Shown in pieces: positions 32,565-40,032 of a DNA stretch of 42,838 bases; the first letter of the stretch is position 1, and every line of letters begins with the position of its first letter. Location of the stretch: NCBI GenBank assembly GCA_019112985.1, contig DXIG01000019.1, positions 1-42,838 of the forward strand, written 5' to 3'. This stretch comes from Candidatus Butyricicoccus stercorigallinarum (GTDB lineage: Bacteria; Bacillota; Clostridia; Oscillospirales; Butyricicoccaceae). Both the position numbers and the translations under genes were made by a program. Below the pieces are notes generated by a model. It ran no database searches, was not told the origin of the DNA, and saw only the letters and a program-made list of their open reading frames with translations.

Positions 32565-32987
32565 TCAGCCGCAGCGCGGCGGGCGCTCACAGCGGCAATC
32601 GCCGCCGGCCGGCTTGCGGCAGCCGCAGCCGTCCGCGCTGTCGCGTCTGGCCGGGAAGAATTCCTCCACCGGGAAGTCAAACCGCTCGAACATCTCGCAC
32701 GGGTCCTCCGGGCGTCCGCAGCTCCCGTCGTCTCCGGTGCAGCTGCAATCCTTGGCGGGCATGCAGATGTCGTAGGCCGGCATGAGCAGCTGGATGTCGC
32801 GCTCCAGACGGAGGATGGAGAACTGGCCGAGCGTGACATAGAGCTTTTTGACGTCGGTGTCCAGAATGATGTCGTCTCCGAACAGGCAGCCGATGTTTTC
32901 CGGCACCTTGTTCAGCTCGCAGCAGCAGCCGCAGCGGCAGCCCGGCTCCACCATCTTTGCCGAAAGCAGCAGCGGGTCAAGGGTCTC
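32565..32987 (-). CDS. 3' half of a cysteine-rich gene interrupted by a recombinase element
   Basis: Encodes the last 140 residues of a protein whose first half is at 34899-35354. From the shared GAGACC the frame reads ETLDPLLLSAKMVEPGC, then a Cys-rich stretch (CRCGCCCELN), LYVTLGQFSILRLERDIQLLMPAYDICMP-type core in two pieces, and a tail of cysteines (CGCRKPAGGDCRC). It has no start codon with a ribosome site in its own right; an in-frame ATG at 33014 would lie inside the recombinase gene. From memory, both halves belong together in one conserved protein of spore-forming clostridia; its function is unknown. Cysteine richness recalls spore-coat or exosporium proteins. Confidence 0.85.
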   Translation of the reverse strand, partial: ETLDPLLLSAKMVEPGCRCGCCCELNKVPENIGCLFGDDIILDTDVKKLYVTLGQFSILRLERDIQLLMPAYDICMPAKDCSCTGDDGSCGRPEDPCEMFERFDFPVEEFFPARRDSADGCGCRKPAGGDCRCERPPRCG

Positions 32988-34200
32988 TGTCTGTGCCCCC
33001 GCCGTCGGACGCATCCGCCCCGCGCCGCCACGCGATGTGCACCGTCCGATCCGCGTCCAGCCGTATGCCGGACAGCAGGCGGGCGAGCTGCGCGTGCCCC
33101 AGCTCGCGCACGCAGGGCGCGTCCTCCGGGACGATCTCGCGCAGACAGCGCTCCAGCAGATCGAACAGCACCGGCTCCGGGATGGTCGCAGCGTTGGCGC
33201 AGGCGGTCTTGTCGCGGTCGTGCCGCCAGCACATCCAGTACCGCCGCCCGCCGCGCGTGCGCGGCGAACAGGCGCCGCCGCACATCCCGCACACGAGCAG
33301 CCCGCTGAGCGGCAGCTTTGGCCGGCGCGCCGCGCCGCGCTTCCCCTCCGCCGCCAGCGCGCTCCGCCGCGCCAGCTCCCGCTGCACCGCGTCAAATTGT
33401 CCGCGCGGGACAATCGCCCAATCGGGCCGCGCGTGGAAAAACCAATCCTCCGGCGGCAGCGCGCGCACCGTGCCGTCGAGATAGTCCACGACCTGGCTTT
33501 TGTGGTTGACCAGCGTGCCGCCGTACACCGGATTGCGCAGGCAGCGGCGCACGCCGCGCGCGTCCCATTTCTTTCCCAGCTTGGTCGGCACGCCCCTGCG
33601 GTTGAGCTCCTGCGCGAGGCGCGCCGTCCCCCAGCCGTCCAGATAGCGCGCAAACAGAAATCGGACGACCTCCGCCTCCGCCGGGCAGATGCGCAGCGTG
33701 AACAGATCCACGCGGTTGTAGCCGTACAGCATCGGCGGCACGCGCCCCTTTTTCGCGTTGAGCTCCTTGCCGAAGCGCACACGCCGGGACAGGTTTGCGC
33801 TCTCCTCCTGCGCGAGCGAGGCGTAGACGGTCAGGATAAATTCCGAGTCGCCCAGGCTCTCCTGCCCGGACGACAGAAAGCGCACGGCAATCCCCAGCTT
33901 CCGGAGCGCCCGAACCGCCTGTAAGCAGTCGACGGTGTTGCGCGCAAAGCGCGAGATGTCCTTGACCGCCACGAGGTCGAACGCGCCGCGCGCCGCGTCC
34001 GCCATCATGCGCGCGAACTGCCCGCGCCGCCGCAGCTGCCGCCCGGACACGCCCTCGTCCGCGTAAACCGCGGTCAGCTCCATGCCCTCCCGCGCGGCAT
34101 ACTGCGCAAAAAACTCCTTCTGGTGCGCAAGACTGTCCAGCTGCTCCTCCTTTTTGGTCGAAACGCGGCAATAGGCCGCCAGCCGCACCTTATGCGCCAT
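32977..34200 (-). CDS. Serine recombinase of the large (SpoIVCA/TnpX-like) class
   Basis: Site-specific DNA recombinase of 407 residues. The resolvase domain starts at once with LAAYCRVST, placing the nucleophile at Ser14, and continues with YADEGVSGRQLRRRGQF, VKDISRFARN and FLSSGQESL-like motifs. A recombinase domain follows (GYNR, then RNPVYGG), and a zinc ribbon has CGMCGG...CWRHDRDKTAC. It lacks the long C-terminal coiled region of 500-residue relatives. ATG 34200 has no good ribosome site and overlaps an upstream small frame, suggesting coupling. The stop codon TGA lies outside the element in host sequence (CTTGAC). Most likely it catalyses integration and excision of its own element. 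Confidence 0.92.
   Translation of the reverse strand: MAHKVRLAAYCRVSTKKEEQLDSLAHQKEFFAQYAAREGMELTAVYADEGVSGRQLRRRGQFARMMADAARGAFDLVAVKDISRFARNTVDCLQAVRALRKLGIAVRFLSSGQESLGDSEFILTVYASLAQEESANLSRRVRFGKELNAKKGRVPPMLYGYNRVDLFTLRICPAEAEVVRFLFARYLDGWGTARLAQELNRRGVPTKLGKKWDARGVRRCLRNPVYGGTLVNHKSQVVDYLDGTVRALPPEDWFFHARPDWAIVPRGQFDAVQRELARRSALAAEGKRGAARRPKLPLSGLLVCGMCGGACSPRTRGGRRYWMCWRHDRDKTACANAATIPEPVLFDLLERCLREIVPEDAPCVRELGHAQLARLLSGIRLDADRTVHIAWRRGADASDGGGTDRDP
32982..32987 (-). repeat. Direct-repeat core at the element's 3'-half junction (attR-like)
   Basis: GAGACC on the minus strand, in frame as Glu-Thr. The same hexamer lies at 34899-34904 at the other junction. Confidence 0.8.
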
Positions 34201-34303
34201 CGCGCCGCGCCGCAAGCGCCCGAAAGACGGCGGCAATCCACGCCGCGCACTGCAAATGATCGGATTGCACGCGGTAATCGGACGCGCGCAGAGCTTTTCC
34301 CAT
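34190..34303 (-). CDS. Possible 37-residue leader peptide upstream of the recombinase
   Basis: Small frame beginning MGKALRASDYRVQSDH and ending ALAARRDGA. It has a strong ribosome site, GGAGGG seven bases before its ATG, whereas the recombinase has none. Its stop overlaps the recombinase start (ATGGCGCATAA), so ribosomes ending here could restart on the recombinase. It may be only a coupling leader, or a small accessory protein such as a directionality factor. There is no homology I can recognise. Confidence 0.45.
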   Translation of the reverse strand: MGKALRASDYRVQSDHLQCAAWIAAVFRALAARRDGA

Positions 34304-34342
34304 ATGGCATCCCTCCTACCCGCTGTTATATGCAAATCACCG

Positions 34343-34371
34343 TTGCGTTTTGCCGCAAAACCGCCTACAAT
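34343..34371 (+). promoter_or_regulatory. NUDIX promoter with an internal dyad
   Basis: TTGCGT (34343-34348), 17-base spacer, TACAAT (34366-34371). An inverted repeat GTTTTG-CCG-CAAAAC (34347-34361) covers the end of the -35 and the spacer and could be a repressor site. Confidence 0.6.
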
Positions 34372-34397
34372 AACTTTGAGAGGAGGGAGATTCTCCC

Positions 34398-34874
34398 ATG
34401 AGAAACACCACGCTGTGCTACATCGAGCACAACGGCAGCTATCTGATGCTGCACCGCACCAAAAAGGAAAACGACCAGAGCCACGACAAATGGCTGGGCA
34501 TCGGCGGAAAATTCGAGGACAAGGAGAGCCCCGAGGAATGTATTCTGCGCGAAACGCGCGAGGAGACCGGCCTGACGCTGACCCGCTACCGCTACCGCGG
34601 CATCGTCACCTTTGTCTCCGACGTCTGGGAGACCGAATACATGCACCTGTTCACAGCGGACGGCTTCACGGGCATGCTGACCGACTGCGACGAGGGCGAG
34701 TGCCGCTGGATTTCCCGCGAGACGCTGCTGTCGCTGCCCATGTGGGAGGGCGACCGCATCTTTCTCAACCTGCTGTTTGACCCGGAGCAGCCGTTTTTCT
34801 CGCTCAAGCTGGAATATCAGGGCGATGCGCTTGTGTATGCCGCCAAGGACGGCGTGCCGCTGCCGCTGGACTGA
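34398..34874 (+). CDS. NUDIX hydrolase, MutT/8-oxo-dGTPase type
   Basis: Hydrolyses a nucleoside diphosphate linked to another moiety, plausibly oxidised nucleotides. The product has 158 residues, starting MRNTTLCYIEHNGSYLML. The NUDIX box occupies residues 37-59 and matches GX5EX7REUXEEXGU (GKFEDKE...RETREETGL). The ribosome site is GAGAGGAGG. It lies wholly within the recombinase element, divergent from the recombinase, and ends 24 bases before the attachment core. Similar proteins are ordinary chromosomal genes in clostridia, so the cargo may have been captured. Part of its antisense strand is an open continuation of the interrupted gene's 5' half. Confidence 0.92.
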   Translation: MRNTTLCYIEHNGSYLMLHRTKKENDQSHDKWLGIGGKFEDKESPEECILRETREETGLTLTRYRYRGIVTFVSDVWETEYMHLFTADGFTGMLTDCDEGECRWISRETLLSLPMWEGDRIFLNLLFDPEQPFFSLKLEYQGDALVYAAKDGVPLPLD

Positions 34875-34898
34875 CGCAGTTCCGAAGCCTGCGGCACC

Positions 34899-34904
34899 GG
34901 TCTC
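34899..34904 (-). repeat. Direct-repeat core at the element's 5'-half junction (attL-like)
   Basis: GAGACC on the minus strand, in frame as Glu-Thr, within GGTC-GA-GACC. Matches the copy at 32982-32987. Confidence 0.8.
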
Positions 34905-35354
34905 GACCACTGCCTCCGGCTTGTTCGCCTTCTCCATCGTCTGCGCGTCAGGACAGCCGCCCTGCGAGGAGAAAATGCGCGCCGTGCCCTCGCTGCCGTA
35001 CAAAATCGCGCGCTTGTCGTAATAGGCAAGGCCGCACAGCTCCTGCGCGCAGCCGCAGCCTGTGCTGACCTCTGCGAAGATTTTGTAAAAATAGCGCACA
35101 TCGACGCTGAAAAAGCCCCGGTTGAAGTCCACCGGCTGCACGTCGATGTCCACCCACAGCAGCTCCGCGCGGCGCGGCTTGATGCTCGTGGAGCGCTCCA
35201 GCAGCTCCTGGGAGCAGCGCGTCAGGTAGACGCGCAGATCGCGGATGCACTCCTTCGAGCGGCACGAATCGAAGATCTTTTTCGCGTGTATGCAAACCGC
35301 CTCGCGAATCTGCGTGTCGCCGCATACGGGACCGGGCGTTACTCGTTCACTCAT
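34899..35354 (-). CDS. 5' half of a cysteine-rich gene interrupted by a recombinase element
   Basis: Encodes the first 152 residues of a protein completed at 32565-32987. It begins MSERVTPGPVCGDTQIREAV, then CIHAKKIFDSCRSKECIRDL, LLWVDIDVQPVDFNRGFFSV, FYKIFAEVSTGCGCAQELCG and FGSEGTARIFSS-like segments, and reaches KPEAVVET at the junction. ATG 35354 has GGAGGGAG. Without excision the frame runs on through the antisense of NUDIX to 34365, giving a nonsense tail. Joined with the 3' half at GAGACC the protein would have 290 residues reading AVVE-T-LDPLLLSAK. Function unknown; a sporulation role is suspected from family memory and a possible late-sporulation promoter. Confidence 0.85.
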
Positions 35355-35384: not shown

Positions 35385-35411
35385 CATACTATGCCGTCGG
35401 GAAAGAAAGGT
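35385..35411 (-). promoter_or_regulatory. Possible sigma-K-like promoter of the interrupted gene
   Basis: On the minus strand AC (35411-35410), 16-base spacer, CATAGTATG (35393-35385), close to the sigma-K pattern AC-N16/17-CATANNNTA with one -10 mismatch. Short motifs of this type arise by chance, so this is tentative. Confidence 0.3.
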
Positions 35412-38565: not shown

Positions 38566-39990
38566 TTATTTGCCGGTGACAACCTGAACCTTAATCATGT
38601 TGGTCGTGCCGGAGACGCCCAGCGGGACGCCGGAGGTGATGACGGCGATATCGCCCTCGTTCATCATGCCCTGATCTCTGGTGGTGTCCAGCGCATAGTT
38701 GAACAGATCGAAGACGTCCTGACGCTCCTCGATGAGAACCGGGCTGACGCCCCATACCAGATTGAGCTGATGGGCGACCGTCTCGGACGGCGTGCAGCCG
38801 ATGATGTCACAGCCCGGGCGATAGCGTGCGATCATGCGCGCCGCGCGGCCGGACTTGGTTACGGTGACAATCGCGCGCGCGTTAAGGTCGTGCGCCGTCG
38901 TACAGGTCGCGTGACAGATCGCGTCCGTGATGTCCGGATTGGCCTTTCTGTCGCGGACGAAAAAGCGCTTGCGGTAGTCGATGTCCTGCTCCGTGCGCTC
39001 CGCGATGCGGACCATCATCGTCAGCGCCTCCACCGGATACAGGCCGGCGGCCGTCTCGCCGGACAGCATGATCGCGCCGGTGCCGTCGTAGATGGCGTTT
39101 GCGACGTCGGTGACCTCCGCACGGGTCGGGCGCGGGTTCTTCATCATGGAATCGAGCATCTGCGTCGCGGTGATAACCTGCTTGCCCGCCAGAATGACCT
39201 TCTTGATGAGCAGCTTCTGGATGGACGGAACGTCCTCCTCCGGAATTTCGACGCCCATGTCGCCGCGGGCGATCATGATGCCGTCCGCCAGCGCAATGAT
39301 GCCGTCGATGTTCTCGACGCCCTGCTGGTTTTCGATCTTTGCGATGATGCTGATCTCCTCGCCGCCGTTCTCATCCAGCAGCAGGCGCAGCTGCTGTACG
39401 TCGTCCGGCGTGCGGACGAACGAGGCCGCGATGAAGTCGACGCCCTGCTCGATGCCGAACTTGATGTCGTCCTTGTCGCGCTCGCTCAGGTACGGGATGG
39501 ACAGATGCACGTCCGGCACGTTGATGCCCTTGTGGTTGGAAACTGCGCCGTCGTTGAGCACGCGGCACAGGATGTCCTGCTCCTGCGTCTGCTCGACGCG
39601 CAGCTCGATCAGGCCGTCGTCGATCAGAATGCTCGTGCCCGCCTGCACGTCCTGATACAGATCGGGATAGGTGATCTGAATCTTCTCCGGCGTGCCCAGG
39701 CAGGGACGCGGAGTCAGGCGGAGGATTTCGCCCTTCTTCAGAAAGATCTTGCCGTCCTTCATATCTCCCGTGCGGATTTCCGGACCCTTGGTGTCCAGCA
39801 AAATGGCGATCGGAAGTCCAAGCTCTTCGCGGACGGCCTTCATGCGGTCCATGCGCTGCTTGTGCTCCTCATGCGAGCCATGCGAAAAATTGAAGCGCGC
39901 GACGTTCATGCCCGCGCGCGCCATGCGGCGCAGCACAGAAATGTCGTCGGTAGACGGACCCATCGTACAAATAATCTTCGTTTTTCTCAT
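38566..39990 (-). CDS. pyk: Pyruvate kinase
   Basis: Transfers phosphate from phosphoenolpyruvate to ADP at the end of glycolysis. The product has 474 residues: MRKTKIICTMGPS at the start, FNFSHGSHEEH, LLDTKGPEIRTG, the catalytic lysine and metal region IIAKIENQQGVENID, then ARGDMGVEIP and ATQMLDSM. It ends at the normal C-terminal domain and lacks the PEP-utiliser extension of Bacillus enzymes. ATG 39990 has GAGGTATTTTGGTT. A near-perfect promoter and a structured 147-base leader lie upstream. Confidence 0.98.
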   Translation of the reverse strand: MRKTKIICTMGPSTDDISVLRRMARAGMNVARFNFSHGSHEEHKQRMDRMKAVREELGLPIAILLDTKGPEIRTGDMKDGKIFLKKGEILRLTPRPCLGTPEKIQITYPDLYQDVQAGTSILIDDGLIELRVEQTQEQDILCRVLNDGAVSNHKGINVPDVHLSIPYLSERDKDDIKFGIEQGVDFIAASFVRTPDDVQQLRLLLDENGGEEISIIAKIENQQGVENIDGIIALADGIMIARGDMGVEIPEEDVPSIQKLLIKKVILAGKQVITATQMLDSMMKNPRPTRAEVTDVANAIYDGTGAIMLSGETAAGLYPVEALTMMVRIAERTEQDIDYRKRFFVRDRKANPDITDAICHATCTTAHDLNARAIVTVTKSGRAARMIARYRPGCDIIGCTPSETVAHQLNLVWGVSPVLIEERQDVFDLFNYALDTTRDQGMMNEGDIAVITSGVPLGVSGTTNMIKVQVVTGK

Positions 39991-40032
39991 AACCAAAATA
40001 CCTCACAAAAAAACACCCTACAAAAATACCCC

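Follow-up and report, generated by a model that had tools for sequence, protein, structure and literature searches.

Two minus-strand reading frames in a Candidatus Butyricicoccus stercorigallinarum contig (DXIG01000019.1) lie on either side of a recombinase gene and a NUDIX gene. Are they two genes, the remains of one, or a single gene that is rebuilt when the intervening DNA is removed? The window, which is the whole stretch analysed (42,838 nucleotides), contains both frames, with the 5' part starting at ATG 35354 and the stop codon of the 3' part at 32565. Each contains GAGACC in the same codon phase (34904-34899 and 32987-32982), and joining at this hexamer gives 290 codons and a stop without interruption. 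These observations bear out a sequence-only reading in which one gene is interrupted by a 1.9-kb serine-recombinase element. The features of the locus, all on the minus strand except the NUDIX gene, are as follows.

35385 to 35411, minus strand: promoter-like site of SigK type ahead of the split gene, AC-N16-CATAGTATG (pattern match)
34902 to 35354, minus strand: codons 1-151 of the split gene, forming its 5' half (reading frame and homologues)
34899 to 34904, minus strand: left GAGACC copy, predicted attL core (sequence, compared across relatives)
34889 to 34898, minus strand: inner arm on the left, GGTGCCGCAG, in inverted orientation to its counterpart on the right (GTGCC/GGCAC; arms by eye)
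34398 to 34874, plus strand: gene for a NUDIX hydrolase, oriented divergently to the recombinase gene (domain search)
34324 to 34332, minus strand: CATATAACA, resembling a -10 box of mother-cell type, upstream of the recombinase (by eye, without control)
32977 to 34200, minus strand: serine recombinase, 407 amino acids from ATG 34200, start uncertain (Resolvase, Recombinase and Zn-ribbon domains)
32988 to 34904, minus strand: inserted element, 1,917 bp with one repeat copy counted (frame joining)
32988 to 33000, minus strand: right inner arm GGGGGCACAGACA (arms by eye)
32982 to 32987, minus strand: right GAGACC copy, predicted attR core (sequence, compared across relatives)
32565 to 32987, minus strand: 3' half of the split gene, including the stop codon (reading frame; relatives lack a conserved start codon there)

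The joined 290-codon product has 3,464 protein homologues at E <= 0.001. Uninterrupted homologues spanning both halves, which the sequence-only reading had proposed as a check, are common: among the matches listed (120 of 3,464), 118 cover at least 78% of the joined protein. The remaining two (P0069 and P0112) are 5' halves from close relatives, in which departure from the gene occurs at this same codon. Close relatives among the listed matches have only split copies or clearly different whole copies. The break in the window's gene follows codon 150 of the joined frame and, in a structure model, falls where the fold is modelled with confidence. As in skin-type elements, one frame is split and rejoins in phase, according to the joined frame, the homologues and the break codons of relatives, and a site-specific recombinase adjoins an att end. 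The product is probably a cysteine-rich component of the spore coat or envelope.

Within the window's family, the gene is in two or three pieces in 15 of 68 gene-positive genomes, with breaks near residues 30, 77 or 150. Five other genomes of the genus have the same break codon and a related recombinase, so the split is more than chance. All 17 relatives opened at the residue-150 site carry a related recombinase (44-81% identical), which is co-oriented with the host gene in all 18 genomes when the window is included. Seventeen of the 18 share the break codon, in phase; the other (G034) is broken some five codons farther upstream, likewise in phase. Two frames without a recombinase between them, the arrangement held in the earlier reading to contradict a split, are absent from these 18 genomes. 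One genome (G006) has a whole gene at the same place, without the NUDIX gene or a close recombinase; precise loss of the element there was not significant (AU p = 0.077). Two further candidates (G099 and G100) were rejected as splits because their contigs end there. Another (G176) was rejected and left uncounted, its two matched parts being 36 bp apart on one contig in a frameshift-like arrangement.

Six genomes have elements of only 1.4 to 1.9 kb, the smallest being that of G173. The 6-bp repeat is not common to all relatives; instead, an in-phase acidic codon (GA-) is found at both sides. Because this codon is what the relatives have in common, and is the pattern that the comparison script was set to look for, the exact crossover dinucleotide is a deduction. 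The NUDIX gene lies inside the element in all six split genomes of the genus. Apart from the NUDIX gene, the recombinase and frames overlapping them, the window's element has no frame of at least 80 amino acids. A 78-amino-acid frame overlaps the recombinase start and could encode a directionality factor. In one species, the only pyruvate kinase copy found in the genome is within that species' cassette. Scans for sigma-70 promoters (0 and 2 promoter-like sites) and terminators (6 and 7 terminator-like sites, above shuffled means of 2.5 and 3.3) were not decisive, and a scan of viral contigs for attP-like patterns gave three uninformative matches from which nothing was drawn.

The window's recombinase has the Resolvase and Recombinase domains of canonical large serine recombinases, and a Zn-ribbon domain. 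Its homology begins near ATG 34200, with a ribosome-binding-site-like GGAGG about 110 bp upstream, and its stop codon sits within the 3' half of the split gene. The CATATA of its -10-like box is present in all six split genomes of the genus. The best-scoring NCBIfam model is XisF, the recombinase of the fdxN element, which is excised developmentally in heterocysts, but the score of 108 bits is below the cut-off of 375, and membership was rejected. By alignment, the stretch from the Zn ribbon to the C-terminal end, where PMC5025042 and PMC5814800 place the coiled coil, is missing from the window's protein and present in six full-length relatives. In 11 of the 17 relatives at the residue-150 site, the Zn-ribbon part is missing as well (by alignment; Pfam-checked for G239 and G010), and these short recombinases, which end before the Zn-ribbon/coiled-coil part, fall in two separate clades. 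Deletion of the coiled coil reduces the activity of LI integrase to about 2% and abolishes that of phiC31 integrase (PMC10754689), so a short recombinase may be weak or need a helper. Loss of the Zn-ribbon/coiled-coil part could also do away with the gate known to control directionality.

Both halves and the recombinase appear to be under selection. In 11 pairs of split genomes, dN/dS is 0.006-0.26 for the 3' half and 0.04-0.18 for the recombinase; for the 5' half it is 0-0.11 in 10 pairs, and one further pair is saturated. Three pairs of G006 with a split genome were left out of the 3'-half values. Synonymous divergence of the element is similar to that of the gene in most split pairs. In five 5'-half comparisons within the group f69, outside G173/G369, dS is much lower than in the 3' half. 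Gene and recombinase trees are concordant in six f69 genomes, and the f69 tree from the 5' half alone disagrees weakly with the others (support 43). For the group g1, trees containing G006 with its initial trimming were left out and corrected G006 was used instead. The low dN/dS and the similar divergence of element and gene indicate that, in the split lineages, the insertion is not a recent event and has not inactivated the gene. Because halves and recombinase are under selection in species that share the split, the element is likely removed on cue and the gene rebuilt.

The cue is suggested by the region upstream of the gene. Of 61 loci, 46 have a SigK-type promoter-like site ahead of the gene, where 0.55 would be expected; among random windows, 37 of 3,000 contain one. 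The strict pattern is missing from 15 of the 61 loci, including 5 of 22 split copies; among these loci, G173 has a CATACTATG box and no AC. SpoIVA is present in 101 of 105 strong gene-positive genomes, versus 119 of 188 others. A sporulation role fits this promoter-like site and the SpoIVA co-occurrence, and the host is predicted from sequence to belong to the late mother-cell (SigK-type) spore genes. We consider it likely that the 1,917-bp element splitting this predicted spore gene is excised during sporulation, which would restore the 290-codon frame. Thus, of the two options in the sequence-only reading, the very small developmentally excised element gains support from the selection on halves and recombinase, the SigK-type site and SpoIVA.

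Excision might instead be random or stress-induced in growing cells, giving a subpopulation with a rebuilt gene, as in phase variation, and no tie to the mother cell. Such switching would produce the same anatomy and the same selection on both halves. The C. difficile skin recombinase is itself constitutively expressed (PMC5025042), and in C. botulinum yin was found excised at every time point (PMC10747680). However, the SigK-type site, the SpoIVA co-occurrence and the lack, among listed close relatives, of whole copies that are not clearly different make this explanation unlikely. A selfish element that landed in a dispensable gene, leaving it dead in these genomes, is improbable. Several unrelated recombinases do target this gene at several sites, as expected for a tolerated target, and a complete genus member (G009, 100%) and two less complete ones lack a gene match. 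Against this, the selection and divergence data also disfavour the recent inactivating insertion that was the other option of the earlier reading, and no stop was reported in the matched parts within the window's genus. That the halves are separate polypeptides that assemble, which the break inside a modelled fold would in principle allow, is very improbable, because relatives share no conserved start codon in the 3' half (G239 has none in frame), for which reason this half was rejected as a protein of its own, and in small elements the recombinase frame runs into it.

If the element is indeed excised during sporulation, the recombinase would join attL to attR in the mother cell, where the full-length cysteine-rich protein would then be made, and the forespore would retain the element. 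Since the recombinase gene and the host gene point the same way, the former may be transcribed from the host gene's own promoter; excision would separate the two, so the reaction would be self-limiting. Perhaps no recombination directionality factor is needed, because the region with Zn ribbon and coiled coil is missing from most small-element recombinases (in the window's, only the coiled-coil stretch is absent).

The skin element in sigK of Bacillus subtilis and Clostridioides difficile likewise carries a large serine recombinase and interrupts a mother-cell sporulation gene, whose frame is restored by excision (PMC5025042 and PMC6957869). The window's element differs in its host gene, its 1.9-kb size and its lack of phage genes. 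Also, excision of C. difficile skin requires a directionality factor, and the recombinase of that element contains both Zn ribbon and coiled coil. The gin element in gerE of Bacillus cereus ATCC10987 is, like the window's, a non-phage element with a serine recombinase in a small sporulation gene, and is developmentally excised. In contrast, it is 28.6 kb and has three recombinase genes and the directionality factor GirX (PMC5595907). Sporulation genes also harbor yin (yabG, Clostridium botulinum), vfbin (spoVFB) and SPbeta (spsM), which are described as prophages or prophage-like and occupy genes other than the window's; yin is reported from one strain only (PMC10747680).

A literature search, in which coverage of subscription journals was limited, found no report of this gene as an element target, which is not proof. 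New relative to known skin-type elements are the unnamed host gene, the very small size and recombinases short of the Zn-ribbon/coiled-coil part. A broader picture, which we offer tentatively and as rather less than an even bet, is that clostridial lineages have turned an unnamed spore gene into a shared landing pad and recombination switch, with two-gene cassettes as the smallest elements. The recombinase would have shed its directionality domain at least twice and be driven by the host's late promoter, so that switching on the gene would set off a single round of self-repair, with no directionality factor involved. The pyruvate kinase cassette would be one that dividing cells cannot afford to lose.

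If the proposed excision is real, programmed excision extends beyond the few genes named in the available literature (sigK, spsM, gerE, spoVFB, spoVR, spoIVFB and yabG), to a host gene split in many uncultured clostridia by elements much smaller than those described there. The elements are compact enough for reconstruction in vitro, and the short recombinases make it testable whether a serine integrase without Zn-ribbon and coiled-coil domains can join attL to attR unaided. For annotation, one spore gene may appear as two fragments in many genomes.

The two minus-strand frames that the sequence-only reading took for one interrupted gene were confirmed, and both contain GAGACC in one codon phase.

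Features of the split gene in the window
from 35354, minus strand: 5' part, beginning at ATG
34904-34899, minus strand: GAGACC of the 5' part
32987-32982, minus strand: GAGACC of the 3' part
to 32565, minus strand: 3' part

Joining the frames at GAGACC gives, as proposed, 290 in-frame codons and a stop, and leaves out a 1,917-bp insert that encodes a serine recombinase (Resolvase, Recombinase, and Zn ribbon domains) and a divergent NUDIX protein. Searching the joined protein against a database, the check that the earlier reading had called for, yielded 3,464 homologues at E <= 0.001. Full-length homologues span both halves (118 of the 120 matches listed have coverage of at least 78%), and the two exceptions among those listed, proteins P0069 and P0112, are 5' halves from close relatives and depart from the gene at the codon where the window's 5' half does. 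These matches indicate that the two halves were formerly one gene and that the nearest relatives among the matches listed are split too. A conserved start codon for the 3' half was not found among the split relatives compared, and a search of the literature available to us listed no report of this gene.

The joined protein was used to search 60 genomes and then 87 genomes of the window's family, both sets including the window's own genome. The gene was matched in 68 of the 87 family members, and in 15 of these it is divided into two or three pieces. Within the window's genus, it was matched in 9 of 12 genomes and is split in six and whole in three (G006, G007, and G011). Six more family members (G021, G065, G075, G078, G099, and G100) have one part only, which may reflect contig ends. 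A class-level search with homologue P0012 matched 125 of 293 genomes, 105 of them below E 1e-20; in this stronger group, at least 13 genomes show a clean pair of parts with the break near residue 150.

Genomes with a broken gene (G000 is that of the window)
Family, gene in pieces: G000, G003, G004, G005, G008, G010, G032, G034, G035, G036, G062, G068, G069, G071, G076
Family, break near residue 30: G004, G005, G035
Family, break near residue 77: G032 and five genomes of genus g6
Family, break near residue 150: G000, G003, G004, G005, G008, G010, G034, G036
Class, clean pair broken near residue 150: G000, G048, G123, G137, G149, G173, G200, G217, G239, G273, G290, G340, G378 (parts on different contigs in G123, G149, and G200)

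In both G004 and G005, the gene is broken twice. At the first of their two breaks, as in G036 and the five g6 genomes, no single insert can be read through, since the flanking pieces come from separate contigs.

Elements were compared in 18 genomes in which the gene is broken near residue 150 (the window and 17 relatives). All 17 relatives carry a recombinase with 44 to 81% identity to the window's, and in 18 of 18 it is co-oriented with the split gene and terminates in or near the 3' half. For recombinases at or near the residue-30 and residue-77 breaks and in G037, eight matches have 24 to 31% identity to the window's; that of G032 is too distant to match and is visible as a reading frame. 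An in-phase acidic codon (GA-) occurs on both sides, at the same place in the gene, in 17 of the 18 splits; because the script searched for this codon at the break, a GA crossover core is only a deduction. The break in G034 lies about five codons upstream of the common site, at a 10-bp identity and also in frame, with about 46 kb separating the halves. Read by eye, the inner arms are inverted repeats around the core (TGCGGCACA / TGTGCCGCA in the window's genus, GTGACAC / GTGTCAC in most genomes of f69, a group of six split genomes), and they are arranged as expected of an attP site. Insert lengths come from the 15 genomes in which a single locus contains both halves. The larger inserts (loci L044, L045, L069, and L073) hold what we take, from first residues, to be ordinary cell genes (ClpB-like, FabF-like, ABC transporter, and polysaccharide genes).

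Lengths of inserts and recombinases
Insert, G173: 1,380 bp
Insert, G003, G004, G008, G010: 1,470 to 1,495 bp
Insert, G273: 1,632 bp
Insert, window: 1,917 bp
Insert, other eight genomes of the 15: 2,318 to 7,745 bp
Recombinase, G003, G004, G005, G008, G010: 287 to 305 aa
Recombinase, G173, G239, G273, G290, G340, G369 (f69): 281 or 282 aa
Recombinase, G034, G036, G048, G137, G217, G378: 485 to 520 aa

The window's recombinase (403 to 407 aa) has retained the Zn ribbon but not the segment found after it in full-length relatives, where the coiled coil should lie. The 11 short forms stop after the Recombinase domain (Pfam domains were checked in G239, G010, G048, and G036). The recombinase tree separates them into an f69 clade (support 100) and a clade of the window's genus (70), and f69 joins the full-length forms of G137 and G217 (87) and of G034 (75), so at least two shortening events are probable. 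With a 281-aa form as query and matches limited to at most 492 aa, 56 of the 120 listed are shorter than 300 aa, some perhaps as contig fragments, and 64 have 365 to 492 aa. In published accounts, the phiC31 directionality factor attaches to the zinc domain, where the coiled coil is located (PMC5814800), LI integrase without its coiled coil gives 2.2% attL x attR recombination without the factor, and phiC31 integrase without it loses activity (PMC10754689). Unaided excision by the short natural recombinases would be plausible. The only Recombinase-domain protein in the window's genome is that of the element.

Also in the window, a 78-aa frame (34074-34310, minus strand) begins at a sequence resembling a ribosome-binding site and overlaps, in another frame, the start of the recombinase, an arrangement reminiscent of skr-spoIVCA in skin (PMC6957869). 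That sequence directly precedes the recombinase start in the five remaining split genomes of the genus. In G173 (L064 2316-2289), a hairpin followed by Ts covers the ribosome-binding site 5' of the recombinase and may damp its translation; by eye, similar letters precede the recombinase in G273, G290, and G369, and not in G239 and G340.

Other observations concern the element's cargo. In the G005 genome (94% complete), the sole match to pyruvate kinase is L036 1975-3447 (G005:C137), between the NUDIX gene and the recombinase of a 3.2-kb element; the window's pyruvate kinase (38566-39996) lies outside the element. In G011 and G007, a NUDIX orthologue (74-75% identical) is directly upstream of the whole gene and divergent from it (L085 1988-2458 and L003 2449-2919), whereas in the rest of the genus it sits within the element.

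G006 is a possible natural empty site. Its whole gene adjoins PAP2 and AroD, the same neighbours that the split gene has in G008 and G010 (read from L084, whose coordinates match the G006 place). In its genome, a NUDIX match was not found and the best recombinase is at most 37% identical. Gene trees place it with the split G004 and G008 (support 77; 89 on codon positions 1+2), and an alternative placement stays unrejected (AU p = 0.077).

The motif AC-N15-17-CATANNNT[AG] is found upstream of the gene in 46 of 61 loci (73 had a usable 5' match, of which 5 lacked a start and 7 were dropped as duplicates or for an internal start; 80 loci gathered later are outside this count), compared with 0.55 expected from first-order Markov sequences and 37 matches among 3,000 windows drawn at random from those loci. 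Among split copies, 17 of 22 have such a site, the exceptions being G173, G217, G062, G068, and G076. According to PMC3789822, the -10 element is common to SigE and SigK of C. difficile, and the two are distinguished at -35 by ATA versus AC. SpoIVA is present in 101 of the 105 strong gene-positive genomes versus 119 of 188 others; it was found in the window's genome and in G009, which is without the gene.

The gene's predicted late promoter would probably read through the 5' half and on into the element. G173 has a 5' half whose end overlaps a GAF-domain gene (ATGA), with the recombinase and then the 3' half downstream on the same strand, so transcription of the recombinase from the host promoter would be the simplest reading there, although the region upstream of the gene in G173 has CATACTATG without AC. 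A CATATA box 5' of the recombinase in the window's genus suggests that it may have its own mother-cell promoter there. Because the recombinase gene of the small elements stops in or at the 3' half, excision would part it from an upstream promoter. Such an element would probably work like skin, gin, yin, vfbin, and SPbeta, and differs from them in host gene, size, and recombinase.

Nei-Gojobori dN/dS was estimated for 11 of 30 possible pairs within two split groups; the ratios are rough because many dS values exceed 1, and pairs share branches. The ratio is 0 to 0.11 for the 5' half in 10 split pairs (saturated in G000/G005), and across 11 pairs it is 0.006 to 0.26 for the 3' half and 0.04 to 0.18 for the recombinase. 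For G000/G003, these values are 0.11, 0.19, and 0.18, respectively; in the whole-gene pair G007/G011, the ratios of the two halves are 0.085 and 0.070. The 3' half of G239/G340 has dN 0.007 and dS 1.12. Among G239, G273, G290, and G340 (L065, L066, L067, and L070; five pairs computed), dS is 0.17-0.69 in the 5' half versus 1.12-2.55 in the 3' half, perhaps through recombination. In most pairs, dS is similar for recombinase and 3' half (1.37 and 1.35 in G003/G005; 1.47 and 1.60 in G004/G008), and less alike in G239/G340 (0.62 and 1.12). Within f69, the recombinase and gene trees have the same topology. The low dN/dS, the similar dS, and this agreement of trees indicate that the element is old in two split lineages, and that the gene it interrupts is still evolving as a protein.
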